A stretch of 62,530 bases of DNA from Candidatus Poribacteria bacterium (GCA_022822785.1 JAJEAL010000021.1:1-62530), one strand, 5' to 3'. Shown: positions 23,172 through 60,029, counted from the stretch's first letter. The notes: generated from the sequence alone by a model not told the origin. Numbers and translations are program-made.

Positions 23172-23475
23172 CTATGGTAGATTTTAGAATTATGGTGAAC
23201 CTTACAATTAATGAGACGCTCCAAACCGGTGCGGTTGGAAACAGCGCCTACCGGGTACGAAAATCTACCAGGGCCGAAAGTGTCTACTTATTTTTCTAAT
23301 TCACTATAATTAGACACTCTGTACCGGCGCAGTTGGAAACAGCGCCTACCAAACATGGGGAGCGAAAGTGTCCATTTATTTTTAGAATCCACTATAGTTG
23401 GACACTCTCAACGCACAGCTAACCCCCTAAATCCCCCTTATCAGGGGGACTTTGGTAAACGTCTTTATTTCCGTA
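23172..23475. repeat. Three chained MITE-A copies
   Basis: Copy 1 starts TATGGTAGATTTTAGAATTA (23173) and ends with TTCACTATA (23300-23308). That end also serves as the left end of copy 2 (TATAATTAGACACTCTGTACC), which ends CACTATAG at 23390-23397. Copy 3 starts there (ATAGTTGGACACTC), carries the C-rich hairpin module CCCCCTTATCAGGGGG and is cut off near 23475. Copies 1 and 2 contain GGAAACAGCGCCTACC. Nothing else occupies 23095-23506. Confidence 0.75.
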
Positions 23476-26027: not shown

Positions 26028-27044
26028 TTAAAATGCCTCATTTGATTTTGCTTTCAACCCTTCCAATTTCTCCAATGCCCGTCCTGAATCAATAGATTCA
26101 GCTGCTACTGCGAGTCCCGCTGTTATGTCTTCAACCCTACCACCCGCAACAATTGCCGCCGCTGCATTGAGCAACACAATGTCTCGTTTCGGCCCTTCTT
26201 CGCCTCTCAGGACGCCCAACGTCATTTCTGCGTTTTCCGCCGGTGTTCCCCCTTTGAGGTCGCTAGACTGTACCGTTGGGATGCCCAATTCGGTCGGATC
26301 AAGCGTGTATGTATTGACCTCCCCATCTGCCAATTCCGAAACCTGAGTCGTTGTTGTCGTTGTGATTTCGTCTAAGCCGTCTTCGCCATGCACAATAAAT
26401 GCACGATGGGTCCCAAAATTCTTGAGGACATGCGCCAACGGCTCTGTAAGCGCTGGCGAGTAAACGCCAAGGACCTGCGCCTGTGCACCGGCAGGATTCG
26501 TGAGCGGACCAAGCGCGTTGAAAATTGTGCGGATACCAATTTCTCGGCGAGGTCCGATTGCATATTTCATCGCGCTGTGCAGTGTAATAGTAAAAAGAAA
26601 GCCGATTCCCACGTCATCAAGACACGCCCCAATCTGCTCTGGTTCTATTTCGATGTTTACACCCAGCGCTTTGAGGACATCGGCAGTTCCACTCCGGCTC
26701 GAAATCGCGCGGTTACCGTGTTTCGCCACCGGAATCCCCGTTCCCGCCACAACAAACGCCGCGGTCGTTGAGATGTTGAACGTATGTGCCCCGTCCCCGC
26801 CCGTGCCGCTCGTATCGACGACAAAGGGGTGTTGGGTGCGAACCTTCGTCGATTTTTCGCGCATCATATGCGCTGCACCGGTGATTTCTTCAATCGTCTC
26901 GCCCTTGATTCGGAGCGCAGTGATGAACGAAGCAACTTGCGCCGGCGTCGCTTCGCCGCTCATGATTTCGTTCATCGTGTCAACGGTTTCACGCTCGGTT
27001 AAGTCTTGCCCATCGACAACTTTTTGTATTGTTTCGCGGATCAC
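26028..27044 (-). CDS. trpD: Anthranilate phosphoribosyltransferase, downstream copy
   Basis: Transfers phosphoribose from PRPP to anthranilate in tryptophan synthesis. PRPP motif GTGGDG, the NISTTAAFVVAG helix, KHGNRAISSRSGTADVLKAL and GPRREIGIRTIFNALGPLTNP are intact at 338 aa. It is a near-identical tandem duplicate of the gene at 27104-28120, down to the termini. This copy starts with GTG (AGGAG eight bases upstream), while the upstream copy starts with ATG. Residue changes include DTSGTGGDGAHT versus DTCGTGGDGSHS and SSRSGTAD versus SSQSGSAD. No other trp gene is in the window, so true trpD function versus a TrpD2-like role is open. Confidence 0.9.
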   Translation of the reverse strand: MIRETIQKVVDGQDLTERETVDTMNEIMSGEATPAQVASFITALRIKGETIEEITGAAHMMREKSTKVRTQHPFVVDTSGTGGDGAHTFNISTTAAFVVAGTGIPVAKHGNRAISSRSGTADVLKALGVNIEIEPEQIGACLDDVGIGFLFTITLHSAMKYAIGPRREIGIRTIFNALGPLTNPAGAQAQVLGVYSPALTEPLAHVLKNFGTHRAFIVHGEDGLDEITTTTTTQVSELADGEVNTYTLDPTELGIPTVQSSDLKGGTPAENAEMTLGVLRGEEGPKRDIVLLNAAAAIVAGGRVEDITAGLAVAAESIDSGRALEKLEGLKAKSNEAF

Positions 27045-27103: not shown

Positions 27104-28120
27104 TTAAAATGTTTCATTCGATTTCGCTTTCAATCCCTCTAACTTCTCCAACGCGCGCCCGGAATCGATGGATTCCGCTGCTGCTGCGAGTCCCGTTGTT
27201 ATGTCTTCAGCCCTACCACCTGCAACAATTGCCGCCGCTGCATTGAGCAACACAATGTCTCGTTTCGGTCCCTCTTCGCCTCTCAGGACGCCCAACGTCA
27301 TTTCTGCGTTTTCTTCCGGTGTGCCTCCTTTGAGGTCGCTGGGCTGCGCTGTTGGGATGCCCAATTTCGTCGGATCAAGCGTGTATGTATTGACCTCGCC
27401 ATCTGCCAGTTCCGAAACCTGAGTCGTTGTTGTCGTTGTAATTTCGTCTAAGCCGTCTCCGCCGTGAACAATAAACGCACGCTGACTGCCAAGATTCTTG
27501 AGGACATTCGCTAGAGGCTGCGTCAGTGTGGGTGCGTAGACACCAATGACCTGCGCCTGTGTGCCAGCGGGATTCGTTAGAGGCCCGAGTACATTGAAAA
27601 TAGTGCGGATACCAATTTCCCGGCGGGGGCCAATCGCATACTTCATTGCACCGTGCAACGCAACGGCAAAGAGAAAACCGATCCCAACATCATCAATACA
27701 TGCTCCAACCTGCTCCGGTCCGATTTCGATATTTACGCCCAACGCTTTAAGAACATCCGCACTACCACTCTGGCTTGAAGCCGCTCGGTTACCGTGCTTT
27801 GCCACCGGAATCCCTGCCCCTGCCACAACAAACGCCGCGGTCGTTGAGATGTTAAACGAATGTGAACCGTCTCCACCTGTGCCGCAAGTATCAACAGCAA
27901 AAGGATGTTTGGTGTGAATCTTTGTCGATTTTTCGCGCATAACGCGTGCGGCGCCGGTAATTTCTTCAATGGTCTCGCCCTTGATTCGGAGAGCGGTGAT
28001 GAAAGAAGCAACTTGCGCCGGCGTCGCTTCACCGCTCATGATTTCATTCATGGCGCCAACGGTTTCGCGCTCGGTCAAATTGTGTCCATCGACAACTTTT
28101 TGTATTGTTTCACGGATCAT
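27104..28120 (-). CDS. trpD: Anthranilate phosphoribosyltransferase, upstream copy
   Basis: The first-transcribed member of the tandem pair, 338 aa, with CGTGGDGSHSFNISTTAA, KHGNRAASSQSGSADVLKAL and LGPLTNPAGTQAQVIGVYAP. The ATG has AGGAG eight bases upstream. The duplication unit of about 1.08 kb includes roughly 20 bases past the stop (CTCAAGGTTAAAATG) and the ribosome site, so both copies carry their own translation signals. Both are uninterrupted, implying either recent duplication or selection for two products. Confidence 0.92.
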   Translation of the reverse strand: MIRETIQKVVDGHNLTERETVGAMNEIMSGEATPAQVASFITALRIKGETIEEITGAARVMREKSTKIHTKHPFAVDTCGTGGDGSHSFNISTTAAFVVAGAGIPVAKHGNRAASSQSGSADVLKALGVNIEIGPEQVGACIDDVGIGFLFAVALHGAMKYAIGPRREIGIRTIFNVLGPLTNPAGTQAQVIGVYAPTLTQPLANVLKNLGSQRAFIVHGGDGLDEITTTTTTQVSELADGEVNTYTLDPTKLGIPTAQPSDLKGGTPEENAEMTLGVLRGEEGPKRDIVLLNAAAAIVAGGRAEDITTGLAAAAESIDSGRALEKLEGLKAKSNETF

Positions 28121-44573: not shown

Positions 44574-44780
44574 TTATAGTAGATTTTAGAATTAATGAGA
44601 CGCTCCAAACCGAACTGCATTGCCCCCAGGGCCGGTAGGTGCGGTTTCTCACCGCACCGCATCGGCGCAGTTGGAAACAGCGCCTACCATACACGGGGTT
44701 GGAAACAGCGCCTACCATACACGGGATCGGAAACAACGCCTACCATACACGGGATCGGAAACAGCACCTACCATACGTGG
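44574..44780. repeat. MITE-A left end with a 28-bp tandem array
   Basis: The left end TTATAGTAGATTTTAGAATT starts at 44574. After an inverted GGTGCGGTTTC/ACCGCACC module comes a contiguous tandem array of a 28-base unit (GGAAACAGCGCCTACCATAC...). Copies lie at 44673-44700, 44701-44728, 44729-44756 and 44757-44780 (partial), nearly identical. No right terminus is recognisable. Confidence 0.75.
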
Positions 44781-47457: not shown

Positions 47458-47524
47458 TTATAGTAAAGTTTAGAATTAATTGGACACTCTGTACCGGCGC
47501 AGTTGGAAACAGCGCCTACCAAAC
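47458..47524. repeat. MITE-A copy, left half
   Basis: TTATAGTAAAGTTTAGAATT at 47458 leads into TTGGACACTCTGTACCGGCG and the GGAAACAGCGCCTACC core, then breaks off. The 47321-47548 gap contains nothing else recognised. Confidence 0.7.
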
Positions 47525-47981: not shown

Positions 47982-48815
47982 ATGACAGCCCCCCGTCCAT
48001 GGATGCCCGTTGAGGGCGACCTAACAGACATACTGAAACAGTATCCGCAGCCGCTCACGGCACTCGCAGCCGGTGAGATGCCAGCTGTCCTCCTGCGACA
48101 AGCCTACAATCCCAACCATTGTGCGGGGCTTATAGAGCGATTTTATGAGCGCGGGTTGATGTATGACCCACACAAAATTGGAGACGGGAGTCCGCACCGC
48201 GTAGATATCGGCACCAGTTTGGGACGGTACAATTCTAACCGTGAGGAGTTTTTTGCCCACTCCGCCGGGACGCATGAACTGTTCAATTCCCTGTTCAACG
48301 GATACGACGACCCGGTGAAGACTATGTACGATAACCTGTCGCAGCTCGCACCGGACAAGAAAGTGATGACAGCGCGGGAGCCTGATGGTAGCCTTTACGG
48401 TCCCGCTATTTTTCGTATCTACCACGACGGGTTGGGACACGGTCCCCATTACGATTCCGTCGCAAAGCGATCACAGCTGTTCACCTACGCTGTTTCTCGA
48501 TTCCAACATCAATTCGCCGGCGTGCTCTGCTTCCAAAACTCCAACGACGCCGGTGAGAGCGGCGAACCTTTTCTCTATAACTGCACCTGGTCGGATGCTG
48601 TGCAGGAGGCACGCGATAGCGGCACCTTCCGGGAATATGTCGCTGAACACGGTATCCCCCGTACGCAGGTTCAGCTAGAGCCGGGCGACCTCTACTTCTT
48701 CTATTCGGAAAACCTTCACGAAGTCCCTTTCGTTATAGGCGATCGACCACGGGCTGTATTGGCAATCTTCTTTGCGATGTCCCCGGACGATGAAGAGATT
48801 TTCGTTTGGTCATAA
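47982..48815 (+). CDS. 2-oxoglutarate/Fe(II)-dependent oxygenase-like protein
   Basis: A 277-aa protein with the cupin-fold oxygenase triad: HGPHYDSV (HxD), ENLHEVPFV (distal His) and DRPRAVLAIFFAMS (2-oxoglutarate Arg). The middle contains QHQFAGVLCFQNSNDAGESG followed by a prolyl-hydroxylase-like strand LEPGDLYFFYSEN. The substrate is unknown. TCGGAGG precedes the ATG by about 10 bases. It heads a four-gene run (PhyH, enolase-superfamily, CocE-type) with gaps of 64, 13 and 20 bases. Confidence 0.78.
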   Translation: MTAPRPWMPVEGDLTDILKQYPQPLTALAAGEMPAVLLRQAYNPNHCAGLIERFYERGLMYDPHKIGDGSPHRVDIGTSLGRYNSNREEFFAHSAGTHELFNSLFNGYDDPVKTMYDNLSQLAPDKKVMTAREPDGSLYGPAIFRIYHDGLGHGPHYDSVAKRSQLFTYAVSRFQHQFAGVLCFQNSNDAGESGEPFLYNCTWSDAVQEARDSGTFREYVAEHGIPRTQVQLEPGDLYFFYSENLHEVPFVIGDRPRAVLAIFFAMSPDDEEIFVWS

Positions 48816-49798: not shown

Positions 49799-50839
49799 AT
49801 GCAGATTACTCATCTGGAACGCACCGTCGTCTGTGTGCCGTTTCTGCCCGGAATTTTGCCACCGCCCGAATACGAGGAGTTTACTCCCTCTTATCCCGCC
49901 CCCCTCGGAGAGAGAAGGCAGGATGTACTGCGTATTCACACGGACGAAGGGATCACCGGAATCGGCATGAGCGGTCCCTATTTCGGCGATCGTGAGGAGC
50001 AGCCCCCGGATTTAATCGGTAAGGATCCGCTCGATTTTGAACCGCGTAATCTAGGCGGCGGTGGCTACAATATTGCCCTCTTGGACCTGATTGGCAAAGC
50101 GATAGGATTGCCTCTGTATCGTATCTTCGGTGGCAAATTTCAGGACCGTGTGCTCGTTGATTACTGGATTACGCGGATGGGACCGGAGGCATCTGCCGCT
50201 GCTGCCAAGCAAGCGGCAGAATTGGGATTCCACGGCATCAAGATAAAATGCACCATAGACGACGGCAACGTGGCAGACCGCGTCCACGCCATGCACGACG
50301 CCGCGCCCGCTCTACGGATTGTTTTAGACCCCGGTCACCGATTTCACACCGTCGGACAGGCGTTGGCATTGGCACGCGAAATTGAAGCGTATGATATTGT
50401 CTTTGAAGATCCAATTCCCAAGGATAACATAGACGATTACCGCCGACTCAAAGACGAGACATCAATTATCATCGCGCCCCATCTACAGAACCCACGCCAA
50501 GTGATTGAAATGGTATATCTAGAAGCGGTGGACGGGATTAACGTTGCGCCTTCGGATTGGGGTTTTCTGGACATGGCCAGGATTGCGGACGCTGCCGGTA
50601 TTCCGGTGTGGCAAGCGTCCAACGTAGACCTTGGGGTCTTCGATCTGTTCCGCCTCCACGCTTCCGCTGCGGCCCCAAATTGCACCTTGGGCAGTGATTT
50701 ATGCGGCAACTTCGTTCACGAGCGCAGCTTGCTTGCCGAGCCCTTGGTCGAAGATGGATATGCGGTAGTCCCAGATACACCGGGACTAGGAGTCGAACTC
50801 GACGAGGACGCTGTACAACGGTATGCGCTGCGTCCATAA
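49799..50839 (+). CDS. Mandelate racemase/muconate lactonizing-type enolase superfamily enzyme
   Basis: It has the capping domain (DVLRIHTDEGITGIGMSG) and a modified TIM barrel with the KxK base motif GFHGIKIKCTIDD, metal ligands Asp in RIVLDPGHR and Glu in DIVFEDPIP. At the third metal position, where family members usually have Glu/Asp, it reads IIIAPHLQNPRQ, and APSDWGFLDMARIADAA gives the barrel end. The missing third acid may change metal binding. The length of 346 aa is slightly short of the usual 370-400. Likely acts on a sugar acid (inference). Confidence 0.85.
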   Translation: MQITHLERTVVCVPFLPGILPPPEYEEFTPSYPAPLGERRQDVLRIHTDEGITGIGMSGPYFGDREEQPPDLIGKDPLDFEPRNLGGGGYNIALLDLIGKAIGLPLYRIFGGKFQDRVLVDYWITRMGPEASAAAAKQAAELGFHGIKIKCTIDDGNVADRVHAMHDAAPALRIVLDPGHRFHTVGQALALAREIEAYDIVFEDPIPKDNIDDYRRLKDETSIIIAPHLQNPRQVIEMVYLEAVDGINVAPSDWGFLDMARIADAAGIPVWQASNVDLGVFDLFRLHASAAAPNCTLGSDLCGNFVHERSLLAEPLVEDGYAVVPDTPGLGVELDEDAVQRYALRP

Positions 50840-52563: not shown

Positions 52564-52847
52564 ACTATAGTAGATCTTAGAATTACTGAGACACTCCAAA
52601 CCGCACCGCATTACCCTCAGGTCCGGTAGGTGCGGTTCTAACCCTGGTCTCGATTCATCGGACCGCACCACATAGTCGCGTAGGTTGAAACGGCGCAGTT
52701 AGAAACAGCGCCTACCAAATGGGAGCCCGGACTGTCCCCATGCCCGGTAGGTGCGGTTTGAAGCCGCACCGCATCGGCGCAGTTGGAAACAGCGCCTACC
52801 ATACACGGGGAGCGGAAGCGTCTATCTGTTTTTAGGGTTTACCATAA
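52564..52847. repeat. MITE-A copy, long form
   Basis: Left end ACTATAGTAGATCTTAGAAT at 52564, right end TTTTTAGGGTTTACCATAAT near 52829-52848. The interior has two GGTAGGTGCGGTT/ACCGCACC inverted modules and two GCGCCTACC cores. It occupies most of the 392-base gap before the oxidoreductase gene; nothing else was recognised there. Confidence 0.8.
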
Positions 52848-52889: not shown

Positions 52890-53936
52890 ATGAATTCATC
52901 TACACCTATTCGCGCTGCCGTTGTTGGTCTAGGTCGCGCTGGCTGGAATATCCATGTCCGCACAATGCAGGGGCGCGAGGATTTTGATGTAATCGCTGTC
53001 GCCGACCCTGACCCTGACCGCCAACAACAGGCAAAGGCAGAAGCATCTGCTCAACCGTTCGATGACTTAGATTCTCTACTGTCAGGTTGCGATGCTGAAC
53101 TCATTGTCGTTGCGACCGCATCAGCAGACCACGCGAACCATTCGATCGCTGCACTCGAAGCCGGGCGGCACGTCCTAACTGAAAAGCCGATGGCGACCGC
53201 CCTAGAAGACGCAGACCGTATGCTCGCCGCCGCCGAGAAGGGGGGCAAGATTTTGACCGTCCACCAGAGTCGTCGCTGGGGCGAAGACTTTCTCTTTATC
53301 CAACAGATGTTGAAAGACGATCGTTTAGGGCACGTCTTCTTCATCCGCTCAGGGGGTTACGGTTATCGTCGCCGGAATGACTGGCAGACGTTGCGAAAAT
53401 ATGGTGGCGGACTGCTCAACAATAACGGCGTACACGCCGTCGATCAGTGTGTCATCCTTATGGAATCGCCTATCGTGGATGTCTTCGGGGACCTGCAACA
53501 AATCCTGCAACCGGGGGATACAGAAGACCATCTCAAAGTGGTCATGCGCGGTGAAAATGGTCGGGTAATCGATTTAGAGCTCACAAGCGCCTGTGCAGCC
53601 GCCCTGCCTTCGTGGACGCTCATGGGCACGCGCGGTACACTGACTATTGCAGGTGGGGGCCCGGCAGTGCTGCAGTACGTGAAGGCCGATCTAGCACCGC
53701 TCGAATCAGTTGACAGGCCCCTGGCAACTGGTCGCAGCTATGGCGTTGAGGGCGGCGATGAGATCGAATTCGAGACAGTGGAACTTGAACCCAAAGCACC
53801 GTCGGGCTCATCGTTCTATGACCAGCTGTACAACGCGATTCGCAACGGTGGACCGCCGCCGGTCGATCCGGCGACTTCACGTGAAACCATCCGTGTAATG
53901 TCCGAAGCGCGAAAGGGAACCCAGTTTACAGACTGA
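52890..53936 (+). CDS. Gfo/Idh/MocA-family oxidoreductase
   Basis: A Rossmann-fold NAD(P)-dependent dehydrogenase: AAVVGLGRAGWNIHVRTMQG (dinucleotide loop), VIAVADPDPDR, HVLTEKPMATALEDAD with the catalytic Lys, and NNGVHAVDQCVILME with the catalytic His. The length of 348 aa is normal. It likely oxidises a sugar, inositol or sugar acid. AAGGAG lies 11 bases upstream of the ATG. The next gene, a TIM-barrel-like protein, begins 63 bases after its stop on the same strand, so the two may act together. Confidence 0.92.
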   Translation: MNSSTPIRAAVVGLGRAGWNIHVRTMQGREDFDVIAVADPDPDRQQQAKAEASAQPFDDLDSLLSGCDAELIVVATASADHANHSIAALEAGRHVLTEKPMATALEDADRMLAAAEKGGKILTVHQSRRWGEDFLFIQQMLKDDRLGHVFFIRSGGYGYRRRNDWQTLRKYGGGLLNNNGVHAVDQCVILMESPIVDVFGDLQQILQPGDTEDHLKVVMRGENGRVIDLELTSACAAALPSWTLMGTRGTLTIAGGGPAVLQYVKADLAPLESVDRPLATGRSYGVEGGDEIEFETVELEPKAPSGSSFYDQLYNAIRNGGPPPVDPATSRETIRVMSEARKGTQFTD

Positions 53937-53999: not shown

Positions 54000-55583
54000 A
54001 TGCCACAACCACGCATCATGTTCTATCACGATGGACGCCATCCGCTCATCTATATGTACGAACCACCGATGCAGAAGGAGGAGTATGAGGCAGCGGTCAA
54101 CGAGCTGGTCGGTACTCCCGTAGATGCGCTGATGTTCTGTTTAGGGGATGGACGCACTGTCTTGCACGATACGAAGGTGGGTGAGCTGTGGGGACATAAC
54201 GTTGAAAACTGGCCCCACATCATCTTCCGCCGCGCGCATCAAAATGCCACACACCTAATCGAGTCGGGCAACGATCCGTTACGGGTGGTCTGTGACCGCG
54301 CCCATGCGAAGGGGATGCTCATCTATCCGACGCTTCTGGTGCAGCAAGGACGAGGGCCTCGTGACCAAGATGTGCGCTGCTCTGACTTCCGTTTCGACAA
54401 CCCACACTTGGAGATTGGTGCGCGCGGCGATCTGGATGCTGAATTTCCCGGACTCACCTGCCTTGATTTCAAACACGAAGAGGTGCGTGAAGAACGGTTT
54501 GCGCTCATTGAAGAGACCGTGACCCACTATCCTATCGATGGTTTTGAGTTGCAACTCAACTACACACCGTATTACTTTCATCCGGACGAGGTCGAAGCCG
54601 GGCGCGAGATTATGACCGCGTGGGTTCGGCGCGTCTATGAAGCTGTCAAGGGGAGCGGCGCAAACCGCGAATTAGCGATCCGCATCCCCGCGAGTCTCGA
54701 AGGGTGCTTACAGGTAGGTATGGACGTGTGTGATTGGATACAGCAGGGGATAGTGGATGTCGTGATCGGACAGACGTTTTCGGGCCCGGAGTTAGTGGAC
54801 TCAACAGTTGATTTCCGTCCCCTAGTCGAAGCAGCCGAAGGGTCGAGTTGTCGGGTCCATGCAGCGATTCAGAGCCATGTAGACTCTGATCGTTTGGGCG
54901 AAGCCACCATTGAGATGGTTCGTGCCACCGCCTGTAACTATTGGGCGCAGGGGGTGGATGGACTCTACCTCGCACACTGGTTCGGCAATTGGCCCTATAA
55001 GGCGGATTTCTATGAAAAGCTGCGGGAGTTGCCGCATCCGGAGGTAATGGCGCCTAAGGATAAGCATTACTACGTTCCCACGGAAACGGGTCGCTATCCA
55101 AAGCCGCCCACGGAACCCGGCATCGCCATGTCACTGCCGGCTGGGCTGGCAGTCGATCGCCCCACTGAGGTGAAATTTAAGATTAGCGACGACCTACCAC
55201 GCTGGAATCAGGTTGGGCGGATCCACGAGGTTCTCCTCCGCCTACGGATTATGAACACAACAGAACTCGATAGCCTCCGCTTTCGACTGAATGGAGTAGA
55301 CCTACCGGATGAACTGCTACGCAAAATCAATGAGATGTACCGGATGAGTGCGCCACGCTACCGCACCGGATCGGGCTACTGGTTCATTTACCGACTGGAC
55401 GAGGCGCATTGGCCCGAATGCGGCGATAACACGCTCGAAGTTACGCTGTTGGAACGTGATGCGGACGTAATCCCAGAATGCTATATCCGCGATGTTGAGT
55501 TAGAAGTCAAGTACTTGATGGGTAAGCATTTTCATCGGGGACGGGATGCGGATTTGGGTCCATACGAATACTCTGGAATCTAA
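54000..55583 (+). CDS. TIM-barrel glycosidase-like protein, paralog 1
   Basis: A 527-aa soluble protein with no signal peptide. The first ~340 residues look like a (beta/alpha)8 barrel of the family 10-like glycoside hydrolase (GHL) kind: VDALMFCLGDGR, CDRAHAKGMLIYPTLL, YPIDGFELQLNY, LAIRIPASLEGCLQVGMDVC and VDGLYLAHWFGNWPYK. The C-terminal ~180 residues form a probable beta-sandwich (VLLRLRIMNTTELDSLRFRL). The protein encoded at 57282 shares order and key segments (IRIP-SLEGC versus ARIPENLEGC). Catalytic acids are not assigned; substrate unknown. Confidence 0.7.
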   Translation: MPQPRIMFYHDGRHPLIYMYEPPMQKEEYEAAVNELVGTPVDALMFCLGDGRTVLHDTKVGELWGHNVENWPHIIFRRAHQNATHLIESGNDPLRVVCDRAHAKGMLIYPTLLVQQGRGPRDQDVRCSDFRFDNPHLEIGARGDLDAEFPGLTCLDFKHEEVREERFALIEETVTHYPIDGFELQLNYTPYYFHPDEVEAGREIMTAWVRRVYEAVKGSGANRELAIRIPASLEGCLQVGMDVCDWIQQGIVDVVIGQTFSGPELVDSTVDFRPLVEAAEGSSCRVHAAIQSHVDSDRLGEATIEMVRATACNYWAQGVDGLYLAHWFGNWPYKADFYEKLRELPHPEVMAPKDKHYYVPTETGRYPKPPTEPGIAMSLPAGLAVDRPTEVKFKISDDLPRWNQVGRIHEVLLRLRIMNTTELDSLRFRLNGVDLPDELLRKINEMYRMSAPRYRTGSGYWFIYRLDEAHWPECGDNTLEVTLLERDADVIPECYIRDVELEVKYLMGKHFHRGRDADLGPYEYSGI

Positions 55584-55588
55584 TTTTC

Positions 55589-55782
55589 GCTCATGTTAAG
55601 AAATCATGCAATAGAAACCGAGTTTTTTCTTGAAAACTTGGTTTCTCTTCGTGCTTTACACTTTCTTTTTGTGTGAATTCCGTAGGTCAGGAACCAATGA
55701 ACTAATGAACAAACTGTTTTCACGTTTCACACATCACGTTTCACGTATTTTGGATTTTGCACTTTCTGTTTACATGAGCCTA
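55589..55782. mobile_element. MITE-B: non-autonomous IS1595-like element
   Basis: GCTCATGTTAAGAAATCATG (55589) and its inverse GCACTTTCTGTTTACATG-AGCC (55761-55782) closely match the ends of the IS1595-like element at 13458-14445. The 194 bp between contain the AACCGAGTTTT hairpin (55614-55645) and no gene, so this is probably a deletion derivative mobilised by that transposase family. It fills the gap between paralog 1 and the propeller gene. Confidence 0.72.
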
Positions 55783-55827
55783 AATTTTTAGATACACAAG
55801 CATCCGTTTGTAATAAGGAGACATCAC

Positions 55828-57261
55828 ATGCCTCAATCTAACCCCTTAGCCGTGGGCACAGCAAAACAACTTCTCTTCGACGACGCTCTTGTTGAAGCTA
55901 AAGAGGGATTTGTCACCACTATGAACCCCGCCGCGCGGAGCAATACGCCCGCGCTGACGCCTGAAAAGCCGTGGGAGTCACACGGGTGTAGTAATCCCAC
56001 GGTGATGCTGGACGAAGGCATCTATAAAATGTGGTATTCCGCCACCGGGGAGGATGGAATCCCGCGAGACTGCTACGCCACCTCTACGGATGGAATTCAC
56101 TGGGAACGTCCCAATCTTGGGCTCATTGACTATCAAGGTTCGCGGGAAAACAATATCATCTCTCTCGACCTCAATCACGGAAGCATCTTCAAAGACCCCT
56201 CTGCTGAACCTGAACGGCGTTATAAGTGTATTCTTGGCGCAGGTAAATACGACTACGTATCGGTATATGGCGGTGGGGCACGGTTCCGGTACGACGAAAA
56301 TCCACCGGAAACATGGCATTACGGCGGTGTCGGTGGTTTGTATTCGCCTGACGGCATTCATTGGACACCCTGCGAAAAACGGATTATGCCGTGGTACACG
56401 GATACACGGAATGTGGCGTTTTGGGATGACCGCATTCAGAAGTACGTGGCGTATGTCCGTTGGAACGAGTACCTGCGGGTGGAGGATGGGGCACAGCGAG
56501 GGTCTTTTGACTACCGTGCCATCGCCCGATCAGAAAGCGCAGACTTCGAGAATTTTCCCGCCCCAGAAAAGATTCTAGAGCCTGATTTCGACGATCCCGA
56601 AGATGCGGATATGTGGGGCGGCGGTCTTTACGACACAGCGGCCCTGAAATATCCCTTTGCCGACGACGCATACTTTATCTTCACCGCCGCTTATTACCAC
56701 ACGACTGATGCGCTAGACATACAGCTTGCTGCCAGCCGTGACGGGATACATTTCACGCGGTGGCGTGAACCTTTTGTGCGACTTGGTCCCGACGGTGCTT
56801 TCGACTCGCTGATGCTCTATATGGGGGTCGGTGTGTTGCCCTTTGGCGACGAGCTTCGGCTCTACTACACCGGTTATGACCAACCCCACGATAAAGTCAC
56901 CGGCGACGACTACCGCCCAGCCATCGGATGCGCTCGTCTACGTCTCGATGGTTTTGTCTCCCAAGATGCGGGTGGACAAGGAGGTTCGCTCACGACACTG
57001 CCCTTTACCGTTGAAGGGAATCGCTTGGAAGTGAACATGGACGGCAGCGCCAGAGGTTGGCTCAAGGTCGAAATCTTGGACGAGGGGCTGCAGCCAATAG
57101 AAGGTTTCATAGAGACGGAGGCAGACCGTCTCGGCGGCAGCAGTACAGTCCAGACCGTGACATGGGGCGGCAACCAAGATCTCTCAACTCTCCAGGGACA
57201 AACGGTACGCTTGCGGTTCGTGGGGCAGTCGGTGAAGTTGTATGCGTTCCAACTCCGATAA
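55828..57261 (+). CDS. GH32/GH43-like five-bladed propeller protein
   Basis: The N-terminal ~380 residues carry blade-like repeats of glycosidase propellers: SNPTVMLDEGIYKMWYSATG, CYATSTDGIHWERPNLGLI, GGLYSPDGIHWTPCEKRI, QLAASRDGIHFTRWREPFV and LRLYYTGYDQPH. The C-terminal ~100 residues are a probable beta-sandwich ending VRLRFVGQSVKLYAFQL. No signal peptide. Catalytic acids of GH32/43 cannot be assigned confidently, so it may be a glycoside hydrolase, phosphorylase or binding protein. AAGGAG precedes the ATG. Confidence 0.72.
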   Translation: MPQSNPLAVGTAKQLLFDDALVEAKEGFVTTMNPAARSNTPALTPEKPWESHGCSNPTVMLDEGIYKMWYSATGEDGIPRDCYATSTDGIHWERPNLGLIDYQGSRENNIISLDLNHGSIFKDPSAEPERRYKCILGAGKYDYVSVYGGGARFRYDENPPETWHYGGVGGLYSPDGIHWTPCEKRIMPWYTDTRNVAFWDDRIQKYVAYVRWNEYLRVEDGAQRGSFDYRAIARSESADFENFPAPEKILEPDFDDPEDADMWGGGLYDTAALKYPFADDAYFIFTAAYYHTTDALDIQLAASRDGIHFTRWREPFVRLGPDGAFDSLMLYMGVGVLPFGDELRLYYTGYDQPHDKVTGDDYRPAIGCARLRLDGFVSQDAGGQGGSLTTLPFTVEGNRLEVNMDGSARGWLKVEILDEGLQPIEGFIETEADRLGGSSTVQTVTWGGNQDLSTLQGQTVRLRFVGQSVKLYAFQLR

Positions 57262-57281
57262 CAGAAGGGATCTGAATCCGA

Positions 57282-58901
57282 ATGAAGGGACAACTTTCCT
57301 CAGAACACATTGATTCGATAAATAGGCGTCGGCGGGTGATTGTCAATTTTGACGTTATTTCAGCGGACGGTGCACGGTTCGCCACCAAAGAGATTGATCG
57401 GTTGGTTGAGTGGAAGTTTATGTTCGCCGACGAGCCGGGCACACATATCGATAGTATCTGCTGGAGTTGGGGTGAAGGGCATCAGGCACCCTATCCGAGC
57501 GATATCCTACCCCTCTACGATTCGGTAGGCTTCAAAAAGTGGGCGGACGACGGTATCAACATCGTACAGGTGTTCCTTGAGGCATCGAAGCAGCGGGGCA
57601 TAGAAGCGTTCTTCTCCTACCGAATCAACGGCTCGGACAACGACTTAGGTCCCGTTGCAAAGATTCCGATGAAGGAAGCATACCCCGATTGGCTAATCCA
57701 CACATGGAACGCTAACGGTTATTGGAACTTCGCGGTTGAGGGTGTCCACGAATACAAGTTGCGTATTCTCCGCGAGGCGGCGGAGGATTACGACTTCGAC
57801 GGTATCGAATTGGATTTCGCGCGGGTTTGTCCCGTTCTGCCTCCGGGACATGGGTGGGAGTACCGCGATAGGCTCACCGATTTCATACGCGCAACACGAG
57901 CGATGTTGCAGGAGGTAGCGCGGAAACGTGGACGTCCATTCCTGCTTGCGGCACGCATACCCGAAAACTTGGAGGGGTGTCATTTTGATGGTATCGACGC
58001 CGAAACGTGGGCGCGTGAGGAATTGTTGGATATTTTCGTCATGGGGTGCAGATCGTTCGATGTGGACATCCCGGCGTTCCGTAGAATCACAGAGGGGACG
58101 AATATCAAACTCTATCCGTGCATCGACGACCATCACGCCTCAGATGGCTATCAGTGGCCCCCGATTGAAGTCATGCGGGGTGTAGCGGCGAATTGGTATC
58201 ACCAGGGCGCAGACGGGGTCCAGACCTTCAATTTCGCCCACGCAAGCCCGGAGGGGACAGATCGGGTTGTCGGTCAGATGTACCTAGAGAAGGGATGGCA
58301 CACGCACCGTCAGGCGTATCAGGAAATTGGTGATCCGGATGGACTCAGGCATAAGAACAAAACCTTCGTTGTGCAGCGTCGCGGCGGTGGGCACGGCACA
58401 ATCGTCATACCTAATCCGGAGGATTGGAGTACACCCCGATTCATGTACTTCAACACAAATATGTTCGGGCAGCTGCCTGCGCCCATAGATAACAATGGGG
58501 TAGTGGATACGCTCTTAACAATTGCTGTCGCCGATGATGTGGCTGCGGAGGTTGATCGGGTTGATCGCATTACACTCCGGCTGCTGCTGTCCGATCCGGA
58601 GGCGGAAAACCTGCCGGACGACCAACGACTTCAGTCCCTCACTGTAGCAACCATCGGTCATCCCGGCACCCTTCAGAACACGCCAGCGGCTAAAGGAATC
58701 GAAGATAAGATTGAGGTACGAGTCAACAATATCCGCTTAGGGACACCGACAGTCGAAGAAGGGTGGTTGGTGTTTGCTGTTCAACCCAAATTTTTAGCGG
58801 TCGGCGATAATCTCGTCGGGGTGCGAGTAACCGAACGCCCTGTTGATATCCGGGGTCAAATTTTGGTTGAAAAACTTGAGGTGCACCTCGAATATCGCTA
58901 G
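57282..58901 (+). CDS. TIM-barrel glycosidase-like protein, paralog 2
   Basis: A 539-aa protein with the same two-part layout as the protein encoded at 54000. The barrel contains EASKQRGIEAFFSYRINGSD, YDFDGIELDFARVCP (an acidic beta-strand end typical of glycosidase barrels), LAARIPENLEGCHFDGID, IFVMGCRSFDV and NWYHQGADGVQTFNF. A beta-sandwich ends the chain (NIRLGTPTVEEGWLVFAVQP). The gene begins 20 bases after the propeller gene, so both are probably made from one mRNA. No signal peptide is seen. Function inferred only at fold level. Confidence 0.7.
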   Translation: MKGQLSSEHIDSINRRRRVIVNFDVISADGARFATKEIDRLVEWKFMFADEPGTHIDSICWSWGEGHQAPYPSDILPLYDSVGFKKWADDGINIVQVFLEASKQRGIEAFFSYRINGSDNDLGPVAKIPMKEAYPDWLIHTWNANGYWNFAVEGVHEYKLRILREAAEDYDFDGIELDFARVCPVLPPGHGWEYRDRLTDFIRATRAMLQEVARKRGRPFLLAARIPENLEGCHFDGIDAETWAREELLDIFVMGCRSFDVDIPAFRRITEGTNIKLYPCIDDHHASDGYQWPPIEVMRGVAANWYHQGADGVQTFNFAHASPEGTDRVVGQMYLEKGWHTHRQAYQEIGDPDGLRHKNKTFVVQRRGGGHGTIVIPNPEDWSTPRFMYFNTNMFGQLPAPIDNNGVVDTLLTIAVADDVAAEVDRVDRITLRLLLSDPEAENLPDDQRLQSLTVATIGHPGTLQNTPAAKGIEDKIEVRVNNIRLGTPTVEEGWLVFAVQPKFLAVGDNLVGVRVTERPVDIRGQILVEKLEVHLEYR

Positions 58902-58950: not shown

Positions 58951-59655
58951 ATGATAATCGAAAACCAACACTACATGATCCGTTCGGGCAACTCAAACAA
59001 TATCTATTGGGAACAAGGCGTTTACCCAGACTGGACTGCCCTCAGCGCATTCCGTCATTTCCCTGATCAACAGATAGGAACAGGCGTTGAACCGCACTAT
59101 CACGATAACGATGAAATGTGGCTGTTCACCGCCGGACACGGCGAGGTATGGTTAAACGACCAACGCTTCGATATTACTCCTAATACGTTAGTCTACACAC
59201 CCATGGGCGTCGTGCATCGGTTTCAGATGTTCACCGGCTACGAGAACAACGCCATCGTGACACAACTTGAGCGGCAGAAACGACCGACACATATCTTGGT
59301 TGAGGAAGCAGGCCCACCCGTCCCGACCGTTCCGGGGTTTATTGTTCCCGGCGAACGCAACACCGGTCCCATTCAGAACCGTGGCTCGCGTTGTCCGCTA
59401 AGTGAATGGCGAGCAGTTACATTCCAGCCGGGTTCCGATTTATCGGAATGCCCGGAACGGCATGAGAGTATTGACGAAACACCTTTGACCTGCAATGAAC
59501 ATTGGCTGGTTGTCGATGGGACAGTCAATCTGACCGTTGACGGGCTGGAGTTTGAGTTGTCGGGCGAAGATTTGGCGATGCTCAAAGCGGGGGCTGTGAG
59601 AAAGATTAGCTCGGTTGAGGGTGCTCGCGTCATTCTGGCTCGTGAAAATTTTTAG
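58951..59655 (+). CDS. Double-cupin protein
   Basis: Two cupin domains in 234 aa. The first has the full metal motif GVEPHYHDNDEMWLFTAGHG with His and Glu ligands, and YTPMGVVHRFQMF. The second (LSEWRAVTFQPG, WLVVDGTVNLTVDGLEFELS) lacks the His pair. The link between them contains PGSDLSECPE, encoded by a 16-base palindrome TTCCGATTTATCGGAA near 59435-59450 that also occurs as an intergenic repeat. It may be a sugar isomerase or a sensor of the pathway encoded upstream (inference). The stop overlaps the convergent next gene by four bases. Confidence 0.8.
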   Translation: MIIENQHYMIRSGNSNNIYWEQGVYPDWTALSAFRHFPDQQIGTGVEPHYHDNDEMWLFTAGHGEVWLNDQRFDITPNTLVYTPMGVVHRFQMFTGYENNAIVTQLERQKRPTHILVEEAGPPVPTVPGFIVPGERNTGPIQNRGSRCPLSEWRAVTFQPGSDLSECPERHESIDETPLTCNEHWLVVDGTVNLTVDGLEFELSGEDLAMLKAGAVRKISSVEGARVILARENF

Positions 59656-60029
59656 GTAATTAGATTAGGAGTTACGCGGTTCAGTTCGTAATTGCACATT
59701 GCATTGCTGGCTAACCCTACTGCCGGTTTTTCCTGCTTATTGTAGACGACGACTACCCCATTTTCGTCTTTATGACTGGCTAATCTCACTGCGAGTTTCC
59801 CCTGTTTATTGGCGACGTTTACGCTATTGCCCCATTCTTCATGGCTGTTTAATACCACTGCCGGTTTTCCCTGCTTATCAACGACAGTGAGACTTGTGCA
59901 TTGAATCTTATCGAACACGCAGTTGTGTTGTGCGGTAACTGGTGGGGATATTAGCGGACTGAGCCACATCCCGATTAGCATTATTGCTGCGCCTAAAGTG
60001 GTATATCCTAACTTCTGCTTGTAGTTCAT
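59652..60029 (-). CDS. Exported small protein with DKQGKPAV repeats
   Basis: A signal peptide or anchor (LGYTTLGAAIMLIGMWLSPL) precedes three imperfect repeats of about 22-24 residues: LTVVDKQGKPAVVLNS, VNVANKQGKLAVRLAS and VVVYNKQEKPAVGLAS. Each has a strand-turn-strand look, suggesting a short beta-solenoid. A 16-residue tail follows. The function is unknown. GGAAGG lies before the ATG. Confidence 0.65.
   Translation of the reverse strand: MNYKQKLGYTTLGAAIMLIGMWLSPLISPPVTAQHNCVFDKIQCTSLTVVDKQGKPAVVLNSHEEWGNSVNVANKQGKLAVRLASHKDENGVVVVYNKQEKPAVGLASNAMCNYELNRVTPNLIT

Follow-up and report, generated by a model that had tools for sequence, protein, structure and literature searches.

Which enzyme family do two similar proteins, in the following called P1 and P3, belong to, and which reactions might they catalyze? 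The question arose from a 62,530-nt stretch of DNA (JAJEAL010000021.1:1-62530; GCA_022822785.1; in the following called the window), which is one contig (C124) within the 5.6-Mb genome of an uncultured sponge bacterium of the Candidatus Poribacteria. It contains five consecutive open reading frames (ORFs) on the plus strand, encoding a Gfo/Idh/MocA oxidoreductase, P1, a propeller protein, P3 and a cupin. The original prediction, made from the DNA alone, had regarded P1 and P3 as paralogs that may form an unnamed glycoside hydrolase group. We found instead that both are clear relatives of a named family, glycoside hydrolase family 156 (GH156), and that both diverged at the active site, so that neither is canonical. 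With a probability slightly above one half (about 0.55), P1 and P3 would be cytoplasmic glycosidases of an extended GH156 group in an intracellular glycoside pathway, with P3 acting on an acidic, ulosonic-type residue and P1 on another sugar in combination with Gfo/Idh oxidation. The two genes are:

54000-55583, plus strand: P1, 527 aa, GH156-fold protein without the sialic-acid clamp (from PDB search, Foldseek and active-site columns).
57282-58901, plus strand: P3, 539 aa, GH156-fold protein with the clamp kept and the acid His replaced by Asp (from PDB search, Foldseek and active-site columns).

P1 and P3 are true paralogs, each consisting of a TIM barrel and a C-terminal beta-sandwich. They were connected by BLASTP (E 4e-17, 22% identity over 405 columns) as well as by profile comparison (probability 99.6%, E 1.3e-24). 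AlphaFold models, built from alignments of locus-derived relatives, showed barrel and sandwich with a pLDDT (predicted local distance difference test) of 92.3 for P1 and a moderate 79.5 for P3, which bore out the predicted glycosidase-type architecture. The two sequence segments proposed to be common to both were also present, but the strings originally given for them, ARIP-x-LEGC and NYW/NWY-QG-DG, had to be corrected to RIP-x2-LEGC (RIPASLEGC in P1, RIPENLEGC in P3) and N-Y/W-W/Y-x-QG-V/A-DG.

Searching the PDB by sequence, we obtained a single significant match for P1, EnvSia156, an inverting exosialidase and the founding enzyme of the rare sialidase family GH156 (6rzd, 8.4e-17), which was the best match of P3 as well (1.4e-21). 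Foldseek returned the same enzyme on top, aligned over the whole chain including the beta-sandwich, for the models of P1 (6s04, 1.7e-37, template modeling (TM) scores 0.75/0.80) and P3 (6s00, 5.1e-32, TM 0.70/0.76). The next fold, Cwp19, followed about 22 (P1) and 18 (P3) orders of magnitude behind the GH156 entries. Lytic transglycosylase-like barrels of the Cwp19 and GHL10 (PF02638) type share the barrel fold and a weak GHL10 profile match in the middle of the barrel, but their Foldseek value of 3e-15 compares with 1e-37 for GH156, and the GHL10 match stays below the gathering cut-off and covers only ~110 residues. Such sub-threshold GHL10 matches were all that Pfam yielded for P1 and P3, and no NCBIfam model reached its cut-off. 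Both proteins possess the (beta/alpha)8 barrel with a C-terminal 8-stranded beta-sandwich found in GH156, and both share with EnvSia156 the full-length fold, the Asp14 position and the buried Arg246. They differ from it by an identity of only ~20-28%, by the lack of His134, and by a gene context with Gfo/Idh, propeller and cupin genes.

In EnvSia156, Asp14 is the base, His134 is the acid and is required for natural substrates, and Arg129, Arg202 and Asn346 clamp the carboxylate of sialic acid (Bule 2019, PMC6811678). We compared these positions in an alignment of 204 sequences, comprising EnvSia156 and 203 relatives from the same and from other genomes; the EnvSia156 row consists of the ~330 residues printed by HMMER, from which residues 58-98 and the C-terminus are absent. 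The Asp14 column holds Asp in 193 of 198 scorable relatives. The canonical state (Arg129, His134, Arg202) was found in 37 sequences, including three other genes of the same Poribacteria genome. P3 belongs to a clade of 35 sequences (support 1.0), in which the clamp is intact and, in most members, Asp132 is replaced by Gly and His134 by Asp (RxNGxD). P1 belongs to a clade of 70 sequences (support 0.92), in which Arg129 is replaced by Leu, Asn131 by Gln, Arg202 mostly by Tyr, and Asn346 by His or Gln, while the His134 column is of the Arg/Thr/Ser type (Arg118 in P1 of the window). The P1 clade has its own invariant residues instead, D11, R13, H14, Q115, E183, D297 and R298, arranged as D11-x-R13-H14 and D297-R298. 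Thus, all three residues of the carboxylate triad are retained in P3 (R114, R181, N317) and none in P1 (L113, Y188, H326). The positions are as follows:

54030-54032, plus strand: P1 Asp11, base position (EnvSia156 Asp14), present in 69/69 scorable P1-clade members.
54336-54344, plus strand: P1 L113-V114-Q115, corresponding to EnvSia156 Arg129-x-Asn131, with the clamp Arg replaced by Leu.
54561-54563, plus strand: P1 Tyr188, corresponding to EnvSia156 Arg202, clamp lost.
54888-54893, plus strand: P1 Asp297-Arg298, following barrel strand 7, second acidic candidate, present in 70/70 P1-clade members.
54975-54977, plus strand: P1 His326, corresponding to EnvSia156 Asn346, clamp lost.
57351-57353, plus strand: P3 Asp24, base position (EnvSia156 Asp14), present in 29/33 scorable clade members.
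57621-57638, plus strand: P3 R114-I-N-G-S-D119, corresponding to EnvSia156 R129-M-N-D-V-H134, with the clamp Arg kept (R114 in 35/35) and the acid His replaced by Asp.
57822-57824, plus strand: P3 Arg181, corresponding to EnvSia156 Arg202, present in 35/35 clade members.
58230-58232, plus strand: P3 Asn317, corresponding to EnvSia156 Asn346, present in 35/35 clade members.

A candidate acidic pair, whose absence from the barrel pocket would have refuted the original prediction, is present: D11 is invariant in P1 and D24 is present in most P3 relatives, and conserved second acidic candidates are D297 in P1 and D119 together with D282/D288 in P3. In the Poribacteria genome alone, ten proteins show seven different pocket codes. 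Further GH156-like pocket types were seen in this genome and in L004, L005 and L006; the clamp is kept and His134 replaced by Tyr in L005, and other substitutions occur in L004 and L006.

P1 orthologs with 54-93% identity were found in at least eight phyla, their hosts being Poribacteria, Latescibacterota, Gemmatimonadota, Acidobacteriota, Chloroflexota (including SAR202), Planctomycetota, Acidimicrobiia, Zixiibacteriota and Aminicenantes metagenome-assembled genomes (MAGs). Errors in MAG binning could inflate this spread, although some records are complete chromosomes. The closest ortholog (93% identity) belongs to another Candidatus Poribacteria genome (L068). Relatives of P3 occurred in 40/40 genomes searched. 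GH156-like genes reach 35-36 copies in sponge Acidobacteria and 32 in a SAR202 genome of 2.1 Mb.

There is a sizeable minority chance that an existing CAZy family not represented in Pfam or NCBIfam, e.g., a subgroup of GH156 or GH179, already covers at least one of these clades. A study of SAR202 reported CAZy genes of both families from large genomes of this group (PMC11994032), and GH156 diversity was noted for Planctomycetota in PMC11929135 (citing Mann 2022). Against this stand the lack of any solved structure nearer to P1 and P3 than EnvSia156 and the failure of every Pfam and NCBIfam model to reach its cut-off. The presence of extra GH156-like genes as such is not wholly new, judging from the same two papers.

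To the left and right of P1 and P3, we identified the dehydrogenase and cupin genes that had been predicted there, and a further gene upstream:

49799-50839, plus strand: enolase-superfamily (MR/MLE) sugar-acid dehydratase-like protein (Pfam MR_MLE_C 1e-33).
52890-53936, plus strand: NAD-dependent Gfo/Idh/MocA oxidoreductase, ending 63 bp before P1 (Pfam GFO_IDH_MocA 1.7e-26).
55828-57261, plus strand: propeller protein, 477 aa, remotely similar to the GH130/GH43 superfamily, with repeated SxDGxxW motifs.
58951-59655, plus strand: bicupin protein, starting 49 bp past P3 (Pfam Cupin_2 2e-13, two stretches).

Using gene calls based on codon usage, we analyzed the neighborhoods of P1 across genomes and found a Gfo/Idh gene on the same strand directly flanking the GH156-like block in 25 of 56 P1 loci, in line with the association to glycan genes expected for relatives. 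Such genes made up 25/66 flanking genes compared to 16/714 background genes (Fisher p 5e-19, uncorrected for phylogeny), the background being 59 random 20-kb regions from three genomes that cover fewer phyla than the P1 loci. A separate Pfam scan assigned GFO_IDH_MocA to 18/87 operonic partners but to at most 2/87 random genes, a bound given by its absence from the 25 most frequent families of the latter. In a phylogenetic tree, the Gfo/Idh partners fell into several separate clades of at least three to four subfamilies, interleaved with paralogs not flanking P1. The type present in the window, the Latescibacterota/Gemmatimonadota type and two more groups were placed apart from each other, with deep branches modestly supported. 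At one locus (L070), P1 is 83% identical to that of the window, yet the adjoining Gfo/Idh protein is unrelated (27% identity). The placement in separate clades argues for repeated recruitment of sugar oxidation beside P1, not for one traveling ortholog.

Extra GH156-like genes cluster around P1 as well, with 27 beyond one per locus (p 8e-11) and gaps of 4-150 bp between tandem genes in several Acidobacteria; side-by-side paralogs hence appear to be a wider feature of the superfamily. In the Acidobacteria loci L085, L082 and L102, three such genes lie in a row with gaps of 29-151 bp (measured on stop-to-stop ORFs); with a Gfo/Idh gene ahead of them and two epimerase-type genes behind, they form a candidate operon. 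Several other candidate associations were rejected. The pairing of P1 with P3 is confined to close Poribacteria relatives, and the neighbors of P3 in other phyla were mixed and uninformative (SDR, deacetylase, esterase and others). Neither the enolase superfamily (MR_MLE in 5/87 partners versus 3/87 background genes) nor PhyH (6/87 versus 6/87) was linked to P1 above background, and the MR/MLE protein in the window is a possible pathway member. A link to sulfated glycans, on which the original prediction had proposed activity screening, was not supported either, with sulfatases at 0.11 per 100 kb near P1 compared to 0.51 in the background.

The Gfo/Idh protein of the window exceeds the cut-off with both domains, the N-terminal Rossmann domain (PF01408, 93.7 bits) and the C-terminal domain (PF22725, 68.5 bits). 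Its nearest function-named PDB entries are the glycoside-3-oxidizing enzymes DgpA2 (3e-23) and DgpA (1.3e-20), with which it shares the Gfo/Idh fold, but the similarity is at the family level only. The partners of DgpA are DgpB/DgpC rather than a GH156-like protein. Alternatively, P1 might act on a glycoside that the adjoining Gfo/Idh enzyme has first oxidized at C3. Cleavage would then proceed by elimination or by an eased hydrolysis and would require the base Asp, whereas a strong acid would be dispensable. This order of events is consistent with the recurrent pairing with several Gfo/Idh subfamilies, with DgpA-type enzymes as closest named relatives, with the loss of canonical acid and clamp in P1, and with oxidation-elimination pathways on record (PMC10628242 and PMC7676230). 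We consider it unlikely, since the known elimination partners have xylose-isomerase-like or unrelated folds, not GH156-like ones, and the resemblance to DgpA is that of Gfo/Idh proteins in general.

The propeller had been described as GH32/43-like, for which we obtained weak support. Its match to Pfam GH130 (E 0.002, 17.6 bits, cut-off 26) and to the NCBIfam GH130 model (25.1, cut-off 450) both remained below threshold, and its best PDB match was a 1,2-beta-oligomannan phosphorylase (3.9e-5). The similarity to GH130 beta-mannoside phosphorylases and hydrolases lies in the propeller repeats with their SxDGxxW motifs, but the EDPR stretch of the best PDB match aligns with SNPT in a local match of 65 residues, so that the GH130 Asp was not seen at that place. 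Several more members of the propeller family are encoded in the same genome, and an alignment of 24 members showed near-invariant SxDG (SxDGxxW) repeats, D18, D123 and R230. The protein thus appears remotely related to the GH130/GH43 type, and an assignment to GH130 is not justified.

How could these proteins work together? As predicted, a hydropathy heuristic detected no signal-peptide-like N-terminus among the window proteins, and the first barrel strand of P1 starts already at residue 6. This fits an intracellular pathway. Under the glycosidase reading favored here, P1 and P3 would have kept the base Asp of single-displacement glycosidases in an otherwise changed pocket. The strictly kept clamp of P3 suggests a substrate with a carboxylate placed as in sialic acid, i.e., Neu5Ac, Kdn, Kdo or a similar ulosonic acid; the clamp would hold the C1 carboxylate and another residue, most simply Asp119, would replace the acid His. 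P3 would then most likely act on an imported glycoside and release its terminal sugar, an acidic one of the ulosonic type. For P1, which has no clamp, an ulosonic substrate is unlikely; cleavage of a non-ulosonic glycoside, with Asp11 acting as the base, would be most likely. The pairing with Gfo/Idh suggests an oxidation before or after cleavage, so that this enzyme would act on the substrate or on the released product. Trimming of another linkage is the probable role of the propeller; the cupin, which is retained next to P3 in close relatives, may isomerize or open the product.

Several points weigh against this reading. One is the acid catalyst, for which Asp297, His14 or His326 are plausible candidates in P1 and Asp119 is presumed in P3. 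The pocket positions of P1 and P3 were derived from the EnvSia156 alignment and strand ends, and residues 120-125 of the P3 model have a pLDDT below 50. In 4/33 scorable members of the P3 clade, the base position is occupied by Gln. The order P1-propeller-P3-cupin was found only in close Poribacteria relatives. Finally, seven NanA-superfamily matches were detected in the same genome, none of them over the NanA equivalog cut-off. This makes sialic acid itself a less likely substrate of P3 and led us to reject sialic-acid catabolism.

The latter result also bears on the view that P1 and P3 are GH156 exosialidases of the ordinary kind, with sialoglycans of sponges or algae as substrates. GH156 homology, the common fold, the clamp residues of P3 and the full canonical set in three other proteins of the genome are compatible with it, but P1 lacks Arg129, Arg202, Asn346 and His134, P3 lacks His134, and a NanA equivalog over cut-off is missing, which makes it improbable. 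Equally improbable is a role as catalytically altered GH relatives in carbohydrate binding or isomerization without glycoside cleavage, because the loss of the acid in both proteins and the strongly remodeled P1 pocket are outweighed by a near-invariant base Asp (193/198) within a strictly conserved polar pocket and by the identity of P1 across phyla, which fits a conserved catalytic role.

Beyond the locus, we tentatively propose, while regarding it as doubtful in its full extent, a large superfamily of intracellular glycosidases with the GH156 sialidase as one of its branches. It would have diversified with the base Asp retained and the residues for acid catalysis and sugar recognition exchanged. 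P1 would represent a cross-phylum branch paired with NAD-dependent Gfo/Idh enzymes, possibly an oxidation-assisted glycosidase or lyase, and dozens of such paralogs would serve SAR202, Acidobacteria, Planctomycetes, Latescibacterota and Poribacteria in removing sugars from glycosides that are dissolved or derived from a host. In a non-exhaustive literature search, we found neither the division into pocket types described nor a P1 branch devoid of the clamp, nor the pairing of this branch with several subfamilies of Gfo/Idh. If true, many marine and sponge-associated bacteria possess dozens of such glycosidase-like genes, mostly under every Pfam cut-off, and P1 and P3 hint at an extensive group of sugar-cleaving enzymes that has hardly been mapped. 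A breakdown of recalcitrant organic matter is under discussion for the marine and sponge-associated lineages carrying many GH156-like genes; few glycoside hydrolases were reported for the cultured SAR202 strain JH545 (PMC10444878). It would also become testable how one retained base Asp serves pockets of differing specificity, and P1 with its Gfo/Idh partner may couple glycoside cleavage and oxidation in a new way.

A scan for promoters and terminators gave nothing above chance level. The window carries at least six copies of a REP-like hairpin repeat (GGTAGGCGCTGTTTCCAACTGCGCC and its complement), e.g., at 26-46, 23228-23346, 44664-44684, 47496-47516 and 52692-52796. The genome contains ~145 copies (76 forward, 69 reverse), compared to 0 for a reversed control pattern, with tandem runs on, e.g., contigs C50 and C13. 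A WelO5-type Fe/2OG protein is encoded at 47982-48815 (PF22814, 4.9e-21) and retained in the nearest relative, L068; its H-Y-D motif suggests an oxygenase rather than a halogenase. Two neighboring, nearly alike ORFs for phosphoribosyltransferase-like proteins of 338 aa (26028-27044 and 27104-28120) apparently resulted from a recent tandem duplication. An ORF on the minus strand at 59652-60029 contains three repeats at 69-bp spacing that code for KQGKPAVxL-like units.

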